From the NCBI GenBank assembly GCA_024742285.1, contig JANSYR010000011.1, positions 62,001-126,000 on the forward strand: 64,000 bases of DNA, written 5' to 3'. Both the position numbers and the translations under genes were made by a program. Shown one piece after another: positions 35,843-62,551 of the stretch (positions are counted from its first letter, which is position 1; each line of letters starts with the position of its first letter). The notes under the pieces were generated by a model. The model was not told the origin of the DNA, did not search any database, and saw only the letters and a list, made by a program, of their open reading frames with translations. The DNA comes from a bacterium (lineage in GTDB: Bacteria; Myxococcota_A; UBA9160; UBA4427).

Positions 35843-35871
35843 TTGACTCCCGAACCCGATTCGTTTATAAA
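35843..35871 (+). promoter_or_regulatory. Promoter of tRNA-Gly
   Basis: TTGACT (35843-35848) and TATAAA (35866-35871) are separated by the ideal 17 bases, 86 bases before the tRNA. The -10 box also contains the stop codon of the antisense integrase frame. Confidence 0.7.
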
Positions 35872-37211
35872 ATGCGGCCCGTCGCGGTGATCCAGCCACC
35901 GCCTCCCACGCTCCACGCCGGGCGAGGGCCACGACGGCCGACAGATTCAGTGATTACGCACGAGTAGCTCAGCTGGTAGAGCATCACGTTGCCAACGTGA
36001 GGGTCGCCAGTTCGAATCTGGTCTCGTGCTCCATCAAATCGCAAGCGCTTCCGACCATTTACGGCGGGAGCGCTTGCTGCTTTTGGGGGTCTCTGGTCCG
36101 GTTTGGTCCGGCTTTGGTCCGGCGTGGCGTCCGCAAGAAAATCGAGCTCATCCTCCGGCGCGGTCATCAGGTGCGAATAGGTCCGCAGCGTGATCTCCGC
36201 GGAGGCGTGTCCGAGGACCGTCTGAACCCACTTGATCGAGCGGCCCGCGTCGAGTGCCCAGCTCGCGAAGGTGTGCCGGGCGCAATGGAAGTGGAGCTTT
36301 CGCACGCCGTGCTGCTCGTTCGCGGACTTGCGCAGCCGATCGAACCCGCGTGCGAAATTGCGCTCGTCCCATCGCAGGCCCCGCGGTGAGAGGAAGACGT
36401 AGTCGTCTCCCGAGGGATCGCTCGCGCCGTCGCGGAGGTCGCCGAGAACGCGTCGTAGCGGGGCGGAGATCGGTACCTCGCGGGAGCGCCCGCTCTTGGG
36501 TGTCGTGACATGACCACGGACCAGCGCGCGGCGCACCCGAATTTTGTCTGCCCCCACGTCCTCCCAGCGGAGGCCGAGGATCTCGCCGCGCCGCATGCCC
36601 GTGTGGATCGCGCAGGTCAGGGGAGCCAGCAGCAGTGGCTCCTCTTCCCGAGCGACGTTCAGGAGCTCCTTCACCTCGGATCGCGTCCAGGCGTCGATAT
36701 CCCGAGGTTCATGCTCGAACCGTCGTGCGACTCGGGCGACGATTCTCCCGGATCCGAGGGCTGGATTTCGATTCAGCAGCCCTTCCTCCACATGAAGTGC
36801 ACAGACTCGCCGGACGACCGAAAGCGCCGTCTCGACGGTGCGCGGAGCGAGGCCCGATTCGAGCTTGGCATGGGCGAACTCGATCAGATCCTCACGCGAT
36901 AGATTTCTGAGGTCTACAGAACCAAAATGTGGGCTGAGATGGTTTCGGATCAAGCTGCGCGCGTTCGCCTCGGTACTGCGCGCGAGTTCGGGGCCGTGGC
37001 TCGCGAGCCAGCCGTCGAGACATCGATCGAGGGGTAGCGCGCCCTGTCGGAGCCAGGCGCTACGTCCGCTCGAGCGCCGGTTGATCTCCTCGGCCATGGC
37101 GATGGCTTCGGACTCGCTGGCGCATTTCTCGTCGAACTGCTTTCCGTCCGCGTAGACCCGGACGAACCAGCCGCGTCCCGGTCGATGTCTCACTTTCGCG
37201 CTCATTATCAC
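35865..37211 (-). CDS. Tyrosine-type site-specific integrase
   Basis: The 448-residue recombinase has an N-terminal arm-binding region, a SAM-like core-binding domain, and a catalytic domain with Arg in HTGMRRGEILGLRWEDV, HCARHTFASWALD (HxxR), the second His in VLGHASAEITL and the tyrosine in RTYSHL. GTG 37211 is favoured, with AAGGTGG upstream; ATG 37205 is two codons later. The last 50 or so residues are read antisense through tRNA-Gly and into its promoter, so they are set by the integration site. The gene lies four bases after an excisionase-like gene. Confidence 0.93.
   Translation of the reverse strand: MIMSAKVRHRPGRGWFVRVYADGKQFDEKCASESEAIAMAEEINRRSSGRSAWLRQGALPLDRCLDGWLASHGPELARSTEANARSLIRNHLSPHFGSVDLRNLSREDLIEFAHAKLESGLAPRTVETALSVVRRVCALHVEEGLLNRNPALGSGRIVARVARRFEHEPRDIDAWTRSEVKELLNVAREEEPLLLAPLTCAIHTGMRRGEILGLRWEDVGADKIRVRRALVRGHVTTPKSGRSREVPISAPLRRVLGDLRDGASDPSGDDYVFLSPRGLRWDERNFARGFDRLRKSANEQHGVRKLHFHCARHTFASWALDAGRSIKWVQTVLGHASAEITLRTYSHLMTAPEDELDFLADATPDQSRTKPDQRPPKAASAPAVNGRKRLRFDGARDQIRTGDPHVGNVMLYQLSYSCVITESVGRRGPRPAWSVGGGGWITATGRIL
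35958..36033 (+). tRNA. tRNA-Gly(GCC)
   Basis: A complete cloverleaf can be drawn. The acceptor stem GCACGAG pairs with CTCGTGC, the D arm is GCTC/GAGC, and the anticodon stem TCACG/CGTGA carries the loop TTGCCAA with anticodon GCC (35991-35993). The T arm is GCCAG/CTGGT with the loop TTCGAAT. The discriminator base is T and CCA is encoded. The 3' end is the likely integration target of the neighbouring island. Confidence 0.97.
36041..36077 (+). terminator. Inverted repeat and T tract after tRNA-Gly
   Basis: GCAAGCGCT at 36041-36049 and AGCGCTTGC at 36069-36077 form a 9-bp stem with a 19-base loop, followed by TGCTTTT. It begins eight bases after the tRNA and may end its transcript. Three copies of TTGGTCCGG-like sequence follow at about 36095-36123 and could be integrase arm sites. 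Confidence 0.4.
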
Positions 37212-37553: not shown

Positions 37554-39716
37554 TCAGAACGATTTGCCAGACGAGCGACTGCCGGTCCCGAGGAGGCGCT
37601 CCAACACCTCTCGAAAGTCGACGAGGCGAGCCACTTCGATGGTGATTCCTTGTCGGAGTTCAGCTTCATGCTCCGACTCGACCTTCGCCCTGATCAGCTG
37701 CATGCGAGAAGGGGACTCGACGAGACTCACGATCGTTTCGAATCCGGCGGTTATATCCTTTCGAATGTTCGCCATCTCGTGTCCCGGGCTGGTCTCGACC
37801 TCGCATGCAACTGGTGCGACCGATTCGAGGCGAATCGTTACGTCGACCCGCGCGCCACTCGATTCGTCTTCGATGTCGGACTTGGCCCCCAGTCCGACCG
37901 CGAAATCTCTCAGTGCCGCTACCCACCACATGTGGACCGGGCCTCCCCTCCCAAGTCCGTGTTGTTCGATTCTGACGCCGAGAGAATCAAGAAGCGCGTG
38001 GCCAGCCGGGGTGATCTCGAGCAGAACCCGCGAGCTTCCTCGCGTGCCAGGATTGACGCGGCGTTGTTTGATAAGTCCCTCCGCTTGGAGGCGCGCCCTC
38101 ATGTTGTTCCCCTTCCATGCACTGATGTGTAGACGCTTGTCTCGCGCCGTCGTCGAGTCCACTGGACTCCCTGCTATGGCTTCGAGGTAATCGAGGTCTT
38201 CCTTCTTCAGCGTACGCGGCAGCTGAGGGGGTTGACTCTCCTGGTCGCTAGGATCGGATGCTTCGCTCTGAGTTTTCCTCGGACCGGCCGCGGATTCGCG
38301 CCCGCCCTCGGTCTTCACCTCGACTGGCCTTCCGGGCCAATCCGAGAACTCGGGCGCCGGAACGGTCGGGATGTGATCGAGCGCTGACACGCTTTGGGCG
38401 ACGTCCTCGTCCGTGACGGTCGGTGGTACCTTGACTTCTGGAATCGAAAGAAGCATCGGATGTCGCCATCGACCGTCGGCAGTCTGAACGATGTATCGTC
38501 CCGCTTCCAAGTTGTGCTTCGCCCACTGGATCTGCTCGCGCGAGAGCCCCATGTCGCCGCCGAAACGCACATAGTCGTCGGCGGTCCCAAGCGGCCCGAC
38601 GTATCGCGTCCCCATGTTCGCGCTGAGGCTCTTCGGCAGCCCTATGCCCGTCTGAACGTTTCCGAGCAGTGCCAGGCCGCTCCCGCGGATCAGACCCGCC
38701 TGCTCGATCACCGTCGGGTTCACGATGTCGCCTCCCGACGGTTCGCTGAAGAATCGCTGGCTGTCTTCGAGTGCGATCACGAGCGAAAGCGGGCCGTTTA
38801 CGATTCCCTCATCGATCTTGTCGTTGAAGATCGAAGACAGTGTGGTCTCGAGCATGATTTGCTTCGCGCTCTCCGAGGCATCCTTCATCTCCAAGACGAT
38901 CGAGTGCTCCGCGAAAACCGATGCTGGCCATCCACGCTTCCACGCATTGCGGTGAAACGGGTGAGACTCGACGAGTGAACCGACTCGGTCGAGAACCGCG
39001 TCTCTCGCAGCGGGGTTCTGGCCGCGCTTAGACTCTATTCGAACGAGGGCTTGCTGCAGGCAGGGCCATTCCGTGCGCGGCCCGTCGAAGATGCCGTACT
39101 CGGCGTAGAGCTCATGGATCGTCGTTCTGAAGAGAGCGCGTGCCCTAGACGGGAGTCCAACGCGTGAGGCAAGGATGTCCGAAAACCGCGCGGCGTGGGC
39201 AATGGGATCGCGATCGTCCGACTGAAGCGGATTGAAAGGCCAGGCGCGCGGTGTGAGGACGATGAGCTCTTTCCCGCATCGCGCAAAATACGGGAGCAGA
39301 TGACGGGCCTGCGTCTTGTACATGTCGAGTAACATAAGGGCGACGTTCCGCATCGCCGCCCATTGGAGCGCGTGAAACGCAAGCAGATTGGATTTCCCTG
39401 CTCCCGTATGTCCGGCGATCAGTGTTCCGCGCGTCAAGGAGTCTCGAGGAACACGGATCGGCCGGCCGTCATCCAGGAAGCCGAGAATGAAGTCGCCCTC
39501 AAGAGGAGGGGGAACGCGGAACGGGACTTCCTCCCCGAATTTGGCTTTCATGCGGAGGGGGTGAGTGAGTTCGTAGATCATCTCGATGTCGGATGCGTCG
39601 GCCTCACCGGCGCGCCATACGTCCAATAGGCTCTGCCCGAGATCCGATTCGAACGCTCCGCGTTTCGACCCCCACACGATCTCATCGATCAGATCCTGTC
39701 GATCGCGCCTCGCCAT
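37554..39716 (-). CDS. HerA-type ATPase fused to winged-helix and nuclease-like domains (copy 1)
   Basis: The 720-residue protein has a HerA/TrwB-type P-loop motor: Walker A GHTGAGKSN at about 102-110 and a Walker B-like LSLVIALEDSQRF near 340. A proline- and serine-rich linker follows at about 460-510. After it comes a winged-helix-like region (ARLQAEGLIKQRRVNPG, LLEITPAGHALLDSLG) and a C-terminal domain with RVDVTIRL and ACEVET (623-642), like PD-(D/E)XK nuclease cores. The usual lysine is not obvious, so catalysis is uncertain. ATG 39716 overlaps the stop of the zinc protein by one base. Function could be DNA transfer, processing or defence. Confidence 0.75.
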   Translation of the reverse strand: MARRDRQDLIDEIVWGSKRGAFESDLGQSLLDVWRAGEADASDIEMIYELTHPLRMKAKFGEEVPFRVPPPLEGDFILGFLDDGRPIRVPRDSLTRGTLIAGHTGAGKSNLLAFHALQWAAMRNVALMLLDMYKTQARHLLPYFARCGKELIVLTPRAWPFNPLQSDDRDPIAHAARFSDILASRVGLPSRARALFRTTIHELYAEYGIFDGPRTEWPCLQQALVRIESKRGQNPAARDAVLDRVGSLVESHPFHRNAWKRGWPASVFAEHSIVLEMKDASESAKQIMLETTLSSIFNDKIDEGIVNGPLSLVIALEDSQRFFSEPSGGDIVNPTVIEQAGLIRGSGLALLGNVQTGIGLPKSLSANMGTRYVGPLGTADDYVRFGGDMGLSREQIQWAKHNLEAGRYIVQTADGRWRHPMLLSIPEVKVPPTVTDEDVAQSVSALDHIPTVPAPEFSDWPGRPVEVKTEGGRESAAGPRKTQSEASDPSDQESQPPQLPRTLKKEDLDYLEAIAGSPVDSTTARDKRLHISAWKGNNMRARLQAEGLIKQRRVNPGTRGSSRVLLEITPAGHALLDSLGVRIEQHGLGRGGPVHMWWVAALRDFAVGLGAKSDIEDESSGARVDVTIRLESVAPVACEVETSPGHEMANIRKDITAGFETIVSLVESPSRMQLIRAKVESEHEAELRQGITIEVARLVDFREVLERLLGTGSRSSGKSF

Positions 39717-40123
39717 CACCCACCCCGAAGAAGAGCCAGCGTTCGGGCAAGACCTCGGACGGGGGCCGTCCACAGCGCGCATTCAGGACACAGGTGTGCC
39801 CCGGACCCGTCGGTGCCGGCCTGTGCGTGCCGGCTGCAAATGCCCCGGCCACAGCGAGCGCACAGGTACCAGTGCAGGGCGCAGGCGACTCCCCGACAAA
39901 CCTGGCATCGCCCGCCGGCGGCGAGATCGGTCGCACTACAGCCACAGGTCTCGAAGTAGCGGTGCTCGACGACGACCGTTCGATCGATCGAGCCTTCCTC
40001 GGAGCGTGAAATGTTCACGGACCGAATCGGGACCATCGGGACCTCGCCCTGTTGGATGTCGTACTCGACGATCCGCTTCACCGGTCGTGATCGGTTTCTG
40101 AAGAGACGGCGAAATCCTGCCAT
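39716..40123 (-). CDS. Cysteine-rich zinc-finger protein
   Basis: The 135-residue protein has a C-terminal half packed with metal-binding pairs: CGC, CQVC, CALHWYLCARCGRGICSRHA and CPEC, resembling cross-braced B-box or treble-clef fingers. The N-terminal half is basic, then strand-forming. ATG 40123 has AAGGAG upstream. The stop overlaps the HerA ATPase start (TGATG), so the two are made together and may act together. It has no catalytic motif; a DNA- or protein-binding partner role is inferred. Confidence 0.65.
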   Translation of the reverse strand: MAGFRRLFRNRSRPVKRIVEYDIQQGEVPMVPIRSVNISRSEEGSIDRTVVVEHRYFETCGCSATDLAAGGRCQVCRGVACALHWYLCARCGRGICSRHAQAGTDGSGAHLCPECALWTAPVRGLARTLALLRGG

Positions 40124-47078: not shown

Positions 47079-48962
47079 CTACGCGGTGTGACCACCCGTA
47101 AGCTCCCTATCTCTCAAGAGAAGATGAACGCGTCGTGCCGACTGGCTTGACAGGCCATCGACTACCTTTTGAATTCGGTCGGATGCGGCTTCGTTGGTCG
47201 CAACGATCCAGATCTGGGAGAAGTCGGAGTTGAGGCAGTTCTGGATGTTGTCTGCGACTGAGGATTTTCCGGTTTCGACCTCGATCGCGATGCGCTCTGA
47301 ATCCCTGGTCGCCACTACGTCGACCCGTCCGCCGAGCCGCGCTGCCTCCTTCGTAACGTCATAGCCGACCGCACGGAATTTCTCGACGTAGAACTCCTTC
47401 CAAAACGCATGCTCAATTGATTCGGAGCGGGAGCTCTCGGAGCCGCGTGTCAGTCGGTACGCGGCATGCGTGGGCCGCAGGACAAGCTTCTTTGTTTGGC
47501 CGACAGGAATAGATGCGGACGCGAGCAGGCCGCGAGCGATGAGTGAGTCCTTGAGCCGGGTCCCCCGGTCTGCGCTCAAACCGAGTCGTCGGTAGCGAGT
47601 ACGAACCGCGTCGAGTGGATGCTGATCGCAGTCCAGAAGAAAACGGATATCGAGCGACTCTGGAGCGCCGCCAATCGCGGCGCTGGAACCTATCGGGTCG
47701 GGTCCTGCGGGTAGTCTCCACCGGTAACTTGCTCGCACCCTTCCGCTGCGCAGATGGTGAGCAAGCACAGCATCCGTGACGCACCCCTTCGCAACTTCCT
47801 GTTTTGGGAAATGCACCATGAAGGGCTTCTGCCAGCGTCCCTGAAGCTTGACGATTCCGTCGCCCAGCGGGAGGCGGTTCAGGTACCGCTTCTGATTCTC
47901 TTGGAGCAGCATCATCGCGGCCGCTCGGTTGATGTCGGTCGGCTCCTTGAGATTTAGGCAGATGCTCGTGTAGGTGTTGCCGAGCGCGGCGCTGCTGATG
48001 AGGTGCGGGTGCTGGTCGACAACGACAACGCCGATCCCCACCTCGCGGCATTGCCGGAGCAGTCGGTTCATCGCCGACTCCTTTGCTCGGTTTTCCTGGC
48101 GGTAGAGGAAGTGATGCGCCTCCTCGACGATGATCATCAGGCGGACCACCTCGCGATCGGGAGCCTGGAGTCGATGGTGGAATAGCCACGTCATGAGCGT
48201 CGACACGAGAAACTGCTGCGCCTTCTCGTCCAAGCCATCGAGCTCAATGATCGTGTTCTGCCCAAGAAGCTGATCAACCAGGCGGGATGGGTCGCTGGAA
48301 GCGGCCTCGAAGCCGCCTGCGAAGGTGAGGCTCTCTAGGGCTCGGACCATGGATGCCTTCCAGCCGACGGCTCGCCCTTGAACGTCGAGTTCACGCGCTG
48401 CCTGAAGAATCGAGTCGATCGTTGGCCAAGGCTGGCTTGGCCCGTACGCGCCTATAACGAGCTTCTGAAGCTGGCTTCTGGCTCCGTCCCCGAGAGTGAA
48501 GGCCGCCGCGAGGGCGTCTATGAGCTGCGCGACGTGGGCGCGGAGGTCCAGACCTGGGGGTGGTATCAGCGGATTGAACGAGAGCGGGGAAAGCGATCGC
48601 CCCGGCGTGAACAAGTTCGTGGCGCGTTTCAGCACTGGAAGCAAATGTCGCACGGTCCGTTTCGTGTCAAGAAATAGGAACGGGATGCCTTGCTGACCAA
48701 GCTGGCGGAGGAGCCCGAATACGATGTTCGTCTTGCCGCTTCCCGAGCGCCCGTAGAGGCCAATCCCCTGCAGCAGGTCCGCTCGGCTGAGCCCGAATGG
48801 ATGGGAAAGCTGGAGATACTTCACGCTGCCAAGATGAATCGGGCCGGCCGCGAGTGCTGCCGGGGGCGGGGGCAGCAGAATCGAATCCGCCCAATCGCCT
48901 AGGATCCTTCGGGCTGTGGCCCCTATATGTCGCTCCAGAAGCTGTCTGGATTCGGCATCCAA
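47079..48962 (-). CDS. HerA-type ATPase fused to nuclease-like domain (copy 2)
   Basis: The 627-residue protein has Walker A GRSGSGKTN at about 71-79, a FLDTKRTVRHLLP stretch, Walker B LMIIVEEAHHFLY near 290, and an arginine-finger-like RLLRQCREVGIGVVVVDQ. The C-terminal part has a winged-helix-like region (IRFLLDCDQHPLDAVRTRYR) and a nuclease-like core RVDVVATRDSERIAIEVETG (546-565). It shares RVDV...EVET with copy 1, although the rest differs. The start is uncertain: TTG 48962 has a poor ribosome site, and the frame is open up to the preceding stop at 49043. Likely a DNA motor or a processing enzyme. Confidence 0.72.
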   Translation of the reverse strand: MDAESRQLLERHIGATARRILGDWADSILLPPPPAALAAGPIHLGSVKYLQLSHPFGLSRADLLQGIGLYGRSGSGKTNIVFGLLRQLGQQGIPFLFLDTKRTVRHLLPVLKRATNLFTPGRSLSPLSFNPLIPPPGLDLRAHVAQLIDALAAAFTLGDGARSQLQKLVIGAYGPSQPWPTIDSILQAARELDVQGRAVGWKASMVRALESLTFAGGFEAASSDPSRLVDQLLGQNTIIELDGLDEKAQQFLVSTLMTWLFHHRLQAPDREVVRLMIIVEEAHHFLYRQENRAKESAMNRLLRQCREVGIGVVVVDQHPHLISSAALGNTYTSICLNLKEPTDINRAAAMMLLQENQKRYLNRLPLGDGIVKLQGRWQKPFMVHFPKQEVAKGCVTDAVLAHHLRSGRVRASYRWRLPAGPDPIGSSAAIGGAPESLDIRFLLDCDQHPLDAVRTRYRRLGLSADRGTRLKDSLIARGLLASASIPVGQTKKLVLRPTHAAYRLTRGSESSRSESIEHAFWKEFYVEKFRAVGYDVTKEAARLGGRVDVVATRDSERIAIEVETGKSSVADNIQNCLNSDFSQIWIVATNEAASDRIQKVVDGLSSQSARRVHLLLRDRELTGGHTA

Positions 48963-50785: not shown

Positions 50786-51430
50786 TTACTTCGCATCCTT
50801 AGAAATCGATCTGTATCCACCGCCTCCGACGACCACGTGGTCGAGGAGCGGGACTCCGAGAATCTCGCCCGCTTCCGACAGTCGCTTCGTGACCGTGAGA
50901 TCTTCCTTCGAGGGATCCAGGTTCCCTGAGGGGTGGTTGTGGGCGACGATGATTCTGGAGGCATTGGCCAGCAGAGCCCCCTTGTAGACCTCCCTTGGAT
51001 GGACGAGGGAAGCGTTGAGGGTGCCGACCGAGATCTGCTCGAGTCCGCAGAGCCGGTTTCGGGCGTCCATGTGAACCGCGTAGAAGGCCTCTCGGTCCAG
51101 GGCCTGGAGCGGTGACAAGAATCGCGCGACATCAGCAGGCCCGTGGATGGGCGGCCGCTCGGTCGTCTGTGGCCGGCTGAGCGATAGCTCCACGCGATAG
51201 TCAGAAATGTCGAAGTAGGCGCTGCTCGGTCGATCTTCGTCCCCGGCGCTGTAGCGCGGGCGTGAGGGAGCATCGGAGCGCGGATGTATGAGTAGGACGT
51301 CATCCTCCGCCGTCACCTCGAACTCCGTTCCTGGGTAGTAGCCGTGCTCCTTGAGCCAGTTCCCCGAGAGTCGAATCTGTGGGTACTCCTTGCCGTTCGA
51401 TGAGTAGCTTGAAACTCGTCTCCTTCTCAT
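50786..51430 (-). CDS. SymE/AbrB-like domain fused to RadC-like JAB domain
   Basis: The 214-residue protein has an N-terminal stretch (PQIRLSGNWLKEHGYYPGTE, FEVTAEDDVLLIHPR) that closely fits the SymE toxin-like SpoVT/AbrB fold. From about residue 95 it is RadC-like. The JAB/MPN metal motif is IIVAHNHPSGNLDPSKED, preceded by a conserved LNASLVHPREVYKGALL. RadC proteins are frequent on mobile elements and have a putative metalloprotease or nuclease role. The fusion with a SymE-like domain is unusual. It is separate from the HerA-2 set by about 107 bases. Confidence 0.8.
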   Translation of the reverse strand: MRRRRVSSYSSNGKEYPQIRLSGNWLKEHGYYPGTEFEVTAEDDVLLIHPRSDAPSRPRYSAGDEDRPSSAYFDISDYRVELSLSRPQTTERPPIHGPADVARFLSPLQALDREAFYAVHMDARNRLCGLEQISVGTLNASLVHPREVYKGALLANASRIIVAHNHPSGNLDPSKEDLTVTKRLSEAGEILGVPLLDHVVVGGGGYRSISKDAK

Positions 51431-52067: not shown

Positions 52068-53369
52068 ATGCCTCGTATAGCTGGAGCAATGGCAGAGGAG
52101 GATATTTACGGCAACAAGAGAAGATACGAACGGATGGTTGCGAACATCGACGCGCTCGCACTTCCGGTGACTTCGCATGGAGTTCGTGGCCGTCGAAAAT
52201 ACCACTGCAAGAACCCTGACAATCTTCAGTACTTCCATCGACTACACAGAATCTTCGAGAGCCGCGATACCAGCTTCACGCGGAGGGGCAGGTTGCTGGG
52301 AATACTCCTGTTTCTGACTGCGGCAACAGACAAGAATCTGGCTGATTGCGATCGGGAGGACGTCAATGAGATGGTTGCGAAGGCACATACAGTGAACCAC
52401 TCGAGCGAATCAAAGGAGACCTTCTTCAAGGCGATGAAGTACATCTGGGGGCAGCTCTTCCCGGAGCTTGACTCAAGGGGGCGAGTTCAAGATGGAGTTG
52501 TTCCATACCCAGTCAGGCACGTCTCCACGCGGGTAGACAGGAGTAGACAGCGCCGGCGAAATGACCGCCTGGCTGAGAGTGAGATCGATCGGCTGATCGC
52601 GTACTTCGGTACCGATCCGCAGATGCAGGCCTACATAGCCCTCGCGCTGGAGTCGCTCGGGCGGCCCCAGGAGATCTGCTACACGCGGGTAGGGGACGTC
52701 GAGATCAGAGATGGGGCCGCGAAGATCTGGGTTAGCTCGCACGGGAAGGAAGGGACGAAGTTTCTTCATTGCATTGAATCATATCCGTACGTGGCTCGTT
52801 GGCTTGCCCGGCATCCATACCGCGATGATCGAGAGGCGTTTCTCTTCATTGCATCCGGCGAGAAGGATCGCCAACTCACACCGGCGAACATCAACAAGAA
52901 GCTACGCCTCGCGTGTGCTCGACTCGGAATCGAGCGACGGATTACCGCGTATTCGCTGAAGCGGAACGGCGTGACTATACGCCGGCTGCGCGGGGAGTCC
53001 GACGTGGAGATCCAGCACGTTGCGGGCTGGACATCAACGAAGCAGCTCAAGACCTACGATCTCTCTAGCGCCGAAGACGTCTTCTCGAATCAGATGAGTC
53101 GAAAGCTCGGGCCCTCGCAGGTCGCCGCAGGAGAGTCCGAGAAATCTGTTCGGAGGACGTGTGCCTGTGGCGCACTTGCGGCCCCGATTGACAGGCTCTG
53201 TGGGACCTGTGGGCGAGTACTTGATCCGCAGCAGATCGAGCGGGAGCAGCAAGCAGATCGTGAGATCAGGGAGGTGTTTGCGAGAGCGCTTCAGAATCCG
53301 GAAGCGAGCCTTGCAGAGATAATCGCGGCGTATAGAAAGGAGAGGGTCTTCTGGGGATCTTCGAGCTAA
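52068..53369 (+). CDS. Archaeal-type tyrosine recombinase with C-terminal zinc ribbon
   Basis: The 433-residue protein has a recombinase fold with non-standard signature residues. The first Arg is in ALESLGRPQEICYTRVGDV. The usual HxLRH box reads AYSLKRNGVTIRR. The second histidine box reads VAGWTSTKQL, with W in place of H. The tyrosine is in KTYDLSS. These changes are seen in haloarchaeal-like XerC/D relatives. After the catalytic domain comes a zinc ribbon (CACGALAAPIDRLCGTCGRV) and a helical tail. ATG 52068 is the start. Its stop meets a converging mobile-gene remnant, so it sits at the island's right end. Confidence 0.82.
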   Translation: MPRIAGAMAEEDIYGNKRRYERMVANIDALALPVTSHGVRGRRKYHCKNPDNLQYFHRLHRIFESRDTSFTRRGRLLGILLFLTAATDKNLADCDREDVNEMVAKAHTVNHSSESKETFFKAMKYIWGQLFPELDSRGRVQDGVVPYPVRHVSTRVDRSRQRRRNDRLAESEIDRLIAYFGTDPQMQAYIALALESLGRPQEICYTRVGDVEIRDGAAKIWVSSHGKEGTKFLHCIESYPYVARWLARHPYRDDREAFLFIASGEKDRQLTPANINKKLRLACARLGIERRITAYSLKRNGVTIRRLRGESDVEIQHVAGWTSTKQLKTYDLSSAEDVFSNQMSRKLGPSQVAAGESEKSVRRTCACGALAAPIDRLCGTCGRVLDPQQIEREQQADREIREVFARALQNPEASLAEIIAAYRKERVFWGSSS

Positions 53370-53510
53370 TACCGTCTGGCGATTCGCTGAATGGCTCCGG
53401 CGCGTGTGGGCGTCCAATGCAGGTCTCGGTCGACTTCTATTCCGCTGCGAGTCCTTAGGGACCGCAGTTCAGGGAGACTGAAGTAGCCCCACTCGGCATC
53501 TTGGTGGCGG
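53366..53510 (-). pseudogene. C-terminal remnant resembling DUF2958
   Basis: A 50-codon minus frame (TTG 53518 to stop 53366) encodes EWGYFSLPELRSLR and IEVDRDLHWTPTRAG. This resembles the conserved C-terminal part of DUF2958, a family carried by plasmids and integrative elements. The N-terminal half is missing; in its place is the end of the MMPL transporter gene. The fragment marks a breakpoint between island DNA and the P450 cluster. The family match is from memory of the consensus. Confidence 0.5.
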
Positions 53511-55475
53511 TCAAGCAAAGAAGCCGGTCACTTCGACCTTTGCCTCGGGCACGATGGCGCGGAGCGGCTCGACGTTCTCTTCGAGAAATCTGATCTGAGA
53601 GCCGGCTCCAACTTGAGGCGCTTTCAACGTGACCCGCGCCAGCTGAAATCTCGAATCCACGACTTCTTCGAGATCGTCGCTGCCCGCGTTCTCGAAAAGC
53701 AGTAGTTCCTGTGCGATCAGCTTGCGATCGGAGGCTACCGAGTATGCATCGGAAGCCCCTTGATTGAGCGCCTGGTGGATTTCCTTGACGATATCAACGA
53801 CGGAGATCGTCTTTGTGATTCGGACGCCCTCGGTATCGGTGGCCTCGGCGTATGTCTGCAGGCGCTCGATCCGCTCGAGAAGCTGCGGGTCGTGCAGACC
53901 ATTCTCGTGCCCGGAGTCGAGAATGAGCTCCATTCCGCTCGCTCCGCCCATTGTGCGATCGATTGATTCGATGGCGATCCGAGCCTCGTTCTCTTCGGGT
54001 AGCCGTTCGAGCGGGTCATAGTCACTCGTGATTTTCGGAATACCGGCGCCAGCCACCGACAACACGACGAGAGCGCAAGCGATGACGCTCTTTGGATAGC
54101 GAGTTCCGATGCGCCCGCAGTGTTCGAGTAATCGTTCCGTCATCGGATCGGCCGTATCTGCGGTCGATGTGCGCGCCCGAATCTGGATCAGCGCAAGCAC
54201 GGCAGGGAGCGCGGTCAGAGAGAGCAACGCCGCACCGAGTACGCCAAACGGAATGAACAATCCGATGTCTCGAATCGGGACGAGATTGGCGGGGACGAAG
54301 GACAACATGCCACCAGCCGTCGTGAGGCTCGACATCAAGATCGCGGGTCCTGAATGATGCAGCGCGCCACGCAGTGCGTTTTCTCGCGCCTGCCCCCGAT
54401 CGAGGTTCTGGAAGAAAATCGCCAAGAGGTGGACCGAGAATCCCACGCCGACCGCAAGAATGAAGGAAGGGACGATCTGGCTCACGAACGTGAGCGGGCG
54501 GCCTGTCGCTCCCATCAAGCCGAGCGTCGCCACGACTGAGGCGCTCACGAGCGTAATGGGGAGCAGAACGGCAGCCCAGCGTCGGAAGACGAGGAGGAGG
54601 AGAGCCCCGATGGCCATGAACGCGTAGCCGGAGAATCGCGTGAGCTCCCGAAGCGTGAGCTGTTGGATCTCCCGGTTCAGAACCGGTGAGCCCGCCACCT
54701 CGATTTCGACGGCCGGGTGCGTAGATCGGAACGTCCGAACGAGCGCTTGCGCGGCCGCAACGAGCTCTCCGACTTGTGCCTCTGAGAGGTATTCGATCTC
54801 GTCGTCGGGCTCCCCGTCGGTGGTCGCGTCGCTGAACCCGGCGAGCACGTCGAGATCGACGGGTGCAAACGTCAAGGGCCGAATCACGATTCCGACGGTC
54901 CGCCCGTCTGTTGACAGGAATAGATCGCGATAGAAGGGATTGTCTCTGGCGAGCTGCTGCAATCGGGAAACGGCCTGAGGTGAGTCAGGCCATTCGTCGA
55001 ACAGCTCTCCCACGATCAGCGTATCGCCTTCGCCGCGAGTCTCACGGGCGTTGATGAGGCTCTGGACTTCGTCGACGTAGGGAAAGTCGTCTTCTATCTG
55101 CTCGTGCAGCTCACGCAAGACGGTGAGGAAGTCGGGATCGAAGACTCGGGGCGGCGTGATTGCGACGAGAAGGAAGTCGTCGCGGCCGAACTGCTCGCGT
55201 AGCAGGTCGTAGCTTTGGCGGATCGGATCATCGACGTCCAGATACCGGTCGACGTCGGCCAGAAACTCGAGCCTCGGAAGCTGGCCGGCCAGCCCCAGCA
55301 CGATCGCAAGGGCGCACACCAACACCCTGCGCGGGCGTCGATGGCAGGCCAGTCCGATCGCAGCGACTGCAAGTTCGAGTCGTCGACGAAGGCTCGGGGC
55401 TCGCGGACCCTCACGTGGTGAATCTGGGCCGGCGACAGACGCGGCATCCGCCGCGGGGGCGTCGGATTCAGACAT
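53511..55475 (-). pseudogene. MMPL/RND-family transporter truncated at its C-terminus
   Basis: The 654-codon frame has a first membrane helix (CALAIVLGLAGQLP, about 55-70), a periplasmic loop and the first membrane bundle at about 275-440 (YAFMAIGALLLLVFRRW, VPSFILAVGVGFSVHLLAIF). A helix near 465-485 and a second periplasmic loop follow. It then ends in VEVTGFFA and a stop. Family members continue with a second five-helix bundle, which is absent. The break lies where a mobile-gene remnant begins. ATG 55475 follows the P450 stop by three bases. It may be inactive, or part of a split gene. Confidence 0.75.
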
Positions 55476-58985: not shown

Positions 58986-60224
58986 TCACGCTGCCTCGAA
59001 TGCCAGAGGAACCGACTTCGGTCCTCTCAGCGCCAACGAGTCGAGCATCGGAATCTCGTTGCTCCGAAGCTCTAGCTTTCTACAACGAGAAAGGAGCGTC
59101 TCGAGTGCAACCCTCGCCTCGAGGCGGGCGAGAGAAGCACCGAGACAGAAGTGGATTCCGTGACCGAATCCGACGTGCCCCTGCGGCTTTCGGTGGATGT
59201 CGAAGGTCGCGGCGTCAGGGAATTTCTCGTCATCGCGGTTGGCGGAGGCGAAGAGCGTCATGAGGAAGGAGCCCTTTTCGACCGTTCCGCCATCGAGCTC
59301 CACCGTTTCGGTCGCAACTCGCGGGAGCGACTGAATCGGGGAGTCGTAGCGAACGACTTCCTCAATGGTCTGAGGAATCAACTTGGGGTCACTCTGCACT
59401 TGCTTGAGCTGGTCTGGGTGTCGCAGAAGAGCACTCACGGCGTTCCCGATGAGGTTGGTCGTGGTTTCGTTTCCGGCCACGAGCAAGAGGAATACGAACG
59501 AGCGAACCTCACCATCCGACAGCGCCTCCTCGCCGTCCTGTGCACTGACAAGCACGCTGATGAGGTCATCCTTTGGATTTTCTCGACGCTCTGCGGCGAT
59601 TTCGTCAATAAACTCCGACATCTCGTCGGCGTTCTCCCGAACCGCCTCCTTCGTGAAGTCCTTGGCGATTCCGGAAAGCCCAATCACCGTCGCATCCGAC
59701 CACCTCTTGAAGTCGCCTCGCCTCTCGGGGTCAATTCCGAGGAGCTCGGCGATGACGGTGACGGGGAACGGGATGGACAGGTCTTGCACAAGGTCCATCT
59801 CTCCGCGGTCGAGGGCCTCATCGACGAAGCGCTCAGCGATTTCCCGCAATCGGGGTTCGAGAGCGGCAATGCGGCGCGGTGTGAAGCCGCGGTTCACGAT
59901 TCCGCGGAGCCGCATGTGGTTCGGCGGGTCGACCGAAATCATCATCGGCGACTCGAGGAGTCGGTGACCCGCGAGTGCCCCTGAGTTCGGGCTCAGGTTG
60001 AGTCCACCCGAGAACAGCGCCTGAAACGCGGTGGATGAAAACTTCGCCGGATGGTGGAGGACATATTCGACGTCCTTGAATCGACTGACCGCGAAGAGTG
60101 GCGTGCCTTCCATCATCGGATGGACGGGGCTCTCGCGCCGAAGCGCCTCGTAGTATGGATAAGGATTCGCCCGAACCTTGGGGTCGAGGAAGTTGTAGTC
60201 GGCAGCCGTCACTTCATTTTCCAT
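58986..60224 (-). CDS. Cytochrome P450 (second of cluster)
   Basis: The 412-residue P450 shows VAGNETTT (I-helix), EEVVRYDSP (ExxR), and the heme loop FGHGIHFCLGASLAR with cysteine near residue 360. The C-terminal LDSLALRGPKSVPLAFEAA is shared with the decayed fragment at 56.7 kb. GGAGG lies nine bases upstream of ATG 60224. It is a soluble class I P450. Similarity to the third P450 (GASLARLEARVALE in both) suggests recent duplication within the cluster. A 169-base gap separates it from the hydrolase gene upstream. Confidence 0.93.
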   Translation of the reverse strand: MENEVTAADYNFLDPKVRANPYPYYEALRRESPVHPMMEGTPLFAVSRFKDVEYVLHHPAKFSSTAFQALFSGGLNLSPNSGALAGHRLLESPMMISVDPPNHMRLRGIVNRGFTPRRIAALEPRLREIAERFVDEALDRGEMDLVQDLSIPFPVTVIAELLGIDPERRGDFKRWSDATVIGLSGIAKDFTKEAVRENADEMSEFIDEIAAERRENPKDDLISVLVSAQDGEEALSDGEVRSFVFLLLVAGNETTTNLIGNAVSALLRHPDQLKQVQSDPKLIPQTIEEVVRYDSPIQSLPRVATETVELDGGTVEKGSFLMTLFASANRDDEKFPDAATFDIHRKPQGHVGFGHGIHFCLGASLARLEARVALETLLSRCRKLELRSNEIPMLDSLALRGPKSVPLAFEAA

Positions 60225-61345: not shown

Positions 61346-62551
61346 CTAGCCCTCAAACCGAATGCGAACGGACTTCGGTCCCCTAAGGATGAGTGAATCA
61401 ATCCACTCCACGTTCGAAGTCGCTCGCTCGACGTTCTTGCATCGGCCGAAGAACTCCTCGAGAGCTACGCGAGCCTCGAGCCGAGCGAGGGATGCGCCGA
61501 GGCAAAAATGAAGCCCGAATCCAAATCCGATATGCCCCTTGAGCTCTCGGGTGACGTCGAATTGCTCGGCATTCGCCAGCCACTCCTCGTCGTGATTGGC
61601 AGAGCCAAGCAACACCATGACCATCTTTTCCTTGGGGATGGGAACGCCACATAGCTCCGTGTCAGCGGCTGTCTGGCGGAAGACGGCTTGCACCGGTGAG
61701 TCGTAGCGAAGCGCTTCCTCAACCACGCCCGGAATCATCTCCGGGTTATCTGTGACCTTCGCGAGCTGTTCAGGATGAGCTGTTAAGGCAAGCAGCGCGT
61801 TCCCGAGCAGGTTGGTTGTGGTTTCGTTGCCGGCGACGAGTAGGAGCACTGTAAAGGCGAGCACCTCACCCTCCGATAGCGTGCCTTCGCCTTCCTCGGC
61901 CCGAATCAGAGTCGAGATCAGATCGTCGTTGGGGCTTCGCCGACGTTCCTGGATCGCCCCGGCGAAGTAGTCGAGGAATTCCTCACGGGCTTTGAGCGCA
62001 ATCTCGGGATCCCCGTCGCCGGAGACGCCCGTCGCGCTCGTGACGATCGCGTCGGACCAGCGCTTGAAGTCGTGGAGGCGTTCGGATGGGACGCCAAGAA
62101 GCTCCGCGATGACCCGGACGGGGAGCGGCATGGACAACGCCTGCACAAAGTCGACCTCGCCGGAGGCTGGGAGTGAGGCGAGGCAATCCTTTGCGATTGC
62201 GCGCACCCGTGGCTCGAGCTCCGCCATTCGGCGCGGCGTGAAGCCGCGATTGACGACTGCCCGTAGTCGGTCGTGGATCGGCGGGTCGGACGAGATCACG
62301 CTATTCGAATCGGTCAATGCGCTTGAGCGCTGACCCGAGCCCATCATGCCCGTCTGGCCGGTCATCATGGCTCGCATGCCCGCGGACGAGAACACTTCCG
62401 GAGTCTTCAACACGTGCTGCACGTCTTCGTGACGGCTTACGGCGAACACACCGAAGGGCTGCATCTCGTGGACGGGCGCCTCCTTTCGAAGAAGCGCGTA
62501 TCCAGGGTAGGGATTCGCGCGCGATTCGGGAGAAAGAGGGTTGTAGTCCAT
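61346..62551 (-). CDS. Cytochrome P450 (third of cluster)
   Basis: The 401-residue P450 has LLVAGNETTTN (I-helix), VVEEALRYDSPVQ (ExxR) and the heme loop FGFGLHFCLGASLAR with cysteine near residue 350. The start at ATG 62551 has GGAG upstream. Methionine-rich sequence near residues 59-71 (MRAMMTGQTGMMG) may line the substrate pocket region. It is followed at once by the hydrolase. The gap of 63 bases to the RND gene upstream suggests one operon. Confidence 0.93.
   Translation of the reverse strand: MDYNPLSPESRANPYPGYALLRKEAPVHEMQPFGVFAVSRHEDVQHVLKTPEVFSSAGMRAMMTGQTGMMGSGQRSSALTDSNSVISSDPPIHDRLRAVVNRGFTPRRMAELEPRVRAIAKDCLASLPASGEVDFVQALSMPLPVRVIAELLGVPSERLHDFKRWSDAIVTSATGVSGDGDPEIALKAREEFLDYFAGAIQERRRSPNDDLISTLIRAEEGEGTLSEGEVLAFTVLLLVAGNETTTNLLGNALLALTAHPEQLAKVTDNPEMIPGVVEEALRYDSPVQAVFRQTAADTELCGVPIPKEKMVMVLLGSANHDEEWLANAEQFDVTRELKGHIGFGFGLHFCLGASLARLEARVALEEFFGRCKNVERATSNVEWIDSLILRGPKSVRIRFEG

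Follow-up and report, generated by a model that had tools for sequence, protein, structure and literature searches.

The stretch of DNA analyzed here (the window; 64,000 nucleotides, C11:62,001-126,000) belongs to a 6.55 Mb genome in 56 contigs that is 95% complete with 4% contamination; positions beyond its right end are also given in window numbering. A tRNA-Gly (GCC) gene, identified with ARAGORN and lying in the same gene order as in sister genomes, is found on the plus strand (35,958-36,033) and is the target of a genomic island, with a tyrosine integrase gene (35,865-37,211, minus strand; Pfam PF00589, 91.7 bits) adjoining the left attachment site. The integrase reads toward the tRNA, and its frame stays open across that gene and on into the flank, where the host DNA sets its end. 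The integrase is part of a mobile-gene module that also comprises two HerA/DUF87-like ATPases, a RadC protein, a recombinase and a remnant of a DUF2958 gene. Pfam support for the ATPase assignment falls on the gene at 47,079-48,962 (minus strand), and the first ATPase (37,554-39,782) is tentatively of HerA/TraG type; by eye, both may carry nuclease-like C-terminal parts. Searches with the ATPase at 47,079-48,962 gave, apart from itself, a single distant match in 377 genomes of the phylum, 26 distant plasmid records and no relatives among viral contigs. A defence library returned just HerA and DndH-like matches to the two ATPases, and a weak Cas1b match (E 0.003) to the second. The RadC domain protein (50,786-51,430, minus strand), assigned by domain search, carries a SymE-toxin-like domain at its N-terminus (29.8 bits, cutoff 29). 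To the right of this module lie a gene for an MMPL transporter and, directly upstream of it, a cytochrome P450 gene (55,479-56,885, minus strand), accompanied by two more P450 genes (58,986-60,224 and 61,346-62,551, both minus strand), a TPR protein, a putative RND efflux pump, so called from its sequence, with its HlyD partner, and a TetR regulator. From the regulator up to 81.9 kb follow a flavin monooxygenase, a nitronate monooxygenase, a Rieske oxygenase, another P450, an amidohydrolase, an alcohol dehydrogenase, and thiolase-like and CMD proteins. This right-hand cargo is one of oxidative catabolism and transport.

The MMPL frame (53,511-55,475, minus strand; PF03176, 94 bits) comprises 654 codons, against an expected length of about 850 residues, so that about 195 C-terminal residues are missing. 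In alignments, it is 57% identical to an 849-residue relative (G065) and 53% identical to a paralogue on contig C6 of the same genome. Homology to these full-length proteins holds up to the last codon and then ends (GFFA versus GFYA at the last residue), and both continue into TM8 at the point where the MMPL frame stops. Hydropathy analysis indicates that TM7 is kept (residues ~464-482) and that the helices of the G065 relative from residue 694 onward have no counterpart, such that TM8-12 are absent from the two-bundle TM1-12 set of a functional MMPL transporter. The original prediction that the frame stops before its second membrane bundle was therefore nearly right: TM8-12 are lost, but TM7 is still there. 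A functional, selected short form could be proposed, given that the 654 codons are free of frameshifts and stops. However, among 101 matches in 191 genomes only two frames fall below 750 codons, namely the one in the window and one located at a contig end (G041), the other 99 reaching at least 750 codons. Furthermore, RND proteins have half of their proton path in TM8-12. We thus regard a functional short form as highly improbable, and the transporter has probably lost its function.

The DUF2958 remnant (53,366-53,518, minus strand), recognized through Pfam and plasmid matches, consists of the next bases after the MMPL end, on the same strand, and retains only the C-terminal part of its gene. 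Its 50-codon frame aligns with positions 64-95 of the roughly 111 positions of the full-length Pfam domain (22.1 bits, cutoff 21, E 2e-4). Eight plasmid records match this frame at E ≤ 0.1, seven annotated as DUF2958 and one belonging to a record without annotation. In a genome-wide search the remnant is the sole DUF2958 match, scoring 18.9 bits, below the cutoff. The TTG start of its frame is the first after a stop and not a conserved start. MMPL homology stops at 53,514 and DUF2958 homology is recognizable from about 53,498 downward, and hence both genes are cut at one common point. The alignments place the breakpoint, to which no strand is assigned, within 53,498-53,520. An MMPL gene truncated against a fragment resembling the C-terminal half of DUF2958 and overlapping its end, with a breakpoint within about 20 bp of 53,510, is what had been anticipated, and these elements of the original prediction are borne out by the two full-length relatives, by the presence of both frames and by the ends of the two homologies.

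The distribution of the join was assessed by searching the junction DNA (53,250-53,800) against 285 genomes, scoring two candidates per genome. This yielded 55 places, 54 of them besides the window's own. Under that scoring, none of the 54 reaches the DUF2958 side, as all start at or beyond query base 284 (53,533), and the MMPL/DUF2958 join was not found in any other of the 285 genomes. A distant-mode search against plasmids returned no match, and a literature search on a truncated MMPL in a tRNA-Gly genomic island gave no result. The absence of the join from these other genomes, scored on two candidates each, together with the fragmentation and contamination of the assembly, would fit an assembly or binning artefact. 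Yet the junction lies deep within a 246-kb contig, composition is alike on both sides and an exact pair of attachment sites flanks it, making an artefact quite unlikely. No close relative was found to carry the same short MMPL protein with no island nearby, an observation that would have counted against the prediction; this outcome must be read in the light of the nearest MMPL relatives being just 53-58% identical to the gene in the window.

The extent of the island was established from the duplication of the tRNA 3' end. The core of the left attachment site, attL (45 bp, 35,989-36,033, plus strand), is exactly repeated outside the window at 82,324-82,368, on the same contig (C11:144,324-144,368), and these 45 bp are the longest exact repeat between the two positions. 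A search of the whole genome with the final 27 bases of the tRNA, allowing up to three mismatches, identified five places: the tRNA itself, C11:144,342, 144,550 and 147,570, and one on C13 with three mismatches. No complete tRNA was found in the 80 kb to the right of the window. An arm of about 110 bp preceding the 82,324 copy is ~78-88% conserved, in blastn pieces, in three sister genomes (G001, G002, G006), where it also adjoins tRNA-Gly remnants; within the contig it stands before the third copy of the tRNA end as well, at 85.57 kb. Such an arm is what would be expected at the end of a family of elements using the tRNA-Gly hotspot. The three tandem 3' remnants lie at L018:18217-18576 and L019:1376-1595 (82217-82576 and 85376-85595 in window numbering). 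In some tRNA-Gly remnants the variable-loop position holds a partly palindromic insert of ~70-95 bp that resembles its counterparts in other genomes (L018:18461-18576, L019:1490-1595, L101 and L112). In the sister genomes examined for an empty site, the left side and the tRNA are conserved, with tRNA-Gly coming after the same upstream gene; beyond the tRNA these contigs soon stop or diverge. A right-flank gene (98,453-100,039) was matched in 23 of 30 family genomes, with no link to the tRNA.

Sequence composition was compared between the two island parts and the flanks. GC content is 0.615 in the island to the left of the junction and 0.622 to the right, versus 0.693 and 0.694 in the flanks. 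Tetranucleotide distances, computed without a permutation control, are 0.116 between the two island parts, 0.30-0.34 between island and flanks, and 0.098 between the flanks. Neither measure shifts at 53.5 kb; the shift is present beyond the cluster of attachment sites. The stretch from 85.6 to 98 kb, with a GC content of 0.635, is low as well and may constitute a further element. The 46 kb from 35,989 to 82,368 are therefore an island inserted at tRNA-Gly, with the tRNA 3' end directly repeated at its two borders, an adjacent integrase and a composition unlike that of its flanks. Given the repeat at 82,324, the conserved arm and the unchanged composition, the junction falls within the island, about 29 kb from its right end and not at its edge. 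The original prediction had placed the right edge of the island at 53.5 kb, which would leave the MMPL and P450 genes on the chromosome, and a truncated gene abutting a mobile-gene remnant beside a recombinase gene does resemble such a border. Against it stand the attR copy and the conserved end of the element, 29 kb further right, the constant composition and the lack of any attachment-like repeat at the break (53.37-53.56 kb), and the breakpoint was rejected as a border, a placement that we consider very unlikely. Accordingly, the P450, RND and MMPL genes beyond 53.5 kb belong to the cargo and not to the chromosome, and the first-drawn extent of the island is corrected.

The gene next to the DUF2958 remnant on the mobile side encodes a tyrosine recombinase with a zinc ribbon (52,068-53,369, plus strand), assigned by sequence matches to an archaeal-virus type. 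It runs convergently to the DUF2958 remnant, with overlapping stops, and terminates 142 bp from the break. All six matching library records are archaeal, at 23-35% identity: three phage records, all archaeal viruses, and three plasmid records, all haloarchaeal. Its catalytic domain and zinc ribbon align with two pleolipovirus integrases and one Halorubrum integrase. No relatives besides itself were detected in 191 related genomes (E 1e-5), in 377 genomes of the phylum (E 1e-10) or in viral contigs. An archaeal origin can be put forward as a lead only, the bacterial chromosomes searched being those of the phylum. The protein keeps Tyr330 and Arg199 and presents Y295-S-L-K298 (Y-x-x-K) at box II instead of the H-x-x-R motif, and this alteration makes its activity doubtful. 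A pleolipovirus-type recombinase carried into a bacterial island might have helped to make the join, in which case an integrase transferred between domains would have left its mark on a bacterial genome as a rearrangement scar; we see this as a slim prospect. The archaeal-type recombinase beside the join may merit separate study. Its closeness to the break and its convergence with the remnant could also indicate that it belonged to a nested element inserted in the MMPL gene, the far end of which was later lost. Such an insertion appears unlikely, since the MMPL 3' part is nowhere else in the assembly, no repeats of at least 11 bp are shared between 51.4-52.15 and 53.3-53.7 kb, and box II of the recombinase is altered.

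The fate of the missing MMPL 3' part, for which a search elsewhere in the genome had been suggested, was followed by using the final 198 residues of the G065 relative as a query against the entire assembly. Each of the 28 matches to the C-terminal half is part of a long open frame, strong matches adjoin their own N-terminal halves, and no orphan 3' end was found. The best reading is thus a deletion, or an illegitimate join, within the island. Most likely, deletion or illegitimate end-joining between the mobile module and the cargo would have taken out the 3' third of the MMPL gene and the 5' half of the DUF2958 gene, the remaining ends becoming joined on the same strand. The deletion that had been proposed is plausible and most simply explains a same-strand loss at a common point, but a join of unrelated ends fits too, and no closer relative shows an unbroken arrangement by which the two might be told apart. 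Both the deletion itself and its timing relative to integration are inferred. That both remnants keep open frames suggests that the join is fairly recent. Overall, we assign a probability of about 0.8 to the junction being a scar within a 46-kb mosaic island at tRNA-Gly, joining a mobile-gene module to P450/RND/MMPL cargo. Biologically, the join is an ordinary scar of mosaic rearrangement.

With respect to known systems, the MMPL protein resembles the MMPL/HAE3 RND transporters (PF03176, TIGR00921) in its first TM bundle, TM7 and both loops, at 53-57% identity, and differs from them in lacking TM8-12. The DUF2958 remnant shares with its family (PF11171) the C-terminal positions 64-95, and differs in that its first half is missing and that it is joined to the MMPL end. 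The island as a whole matches tRNA islands with a tyrosine integrase in its exact duplication of the tRNA 3' end, the integrase beside the tRNA, its foreign composition, its variable cargo and its several tandem attachment-site remnants; nothing essential differs, the integrase frame here continuing through the tRNA.
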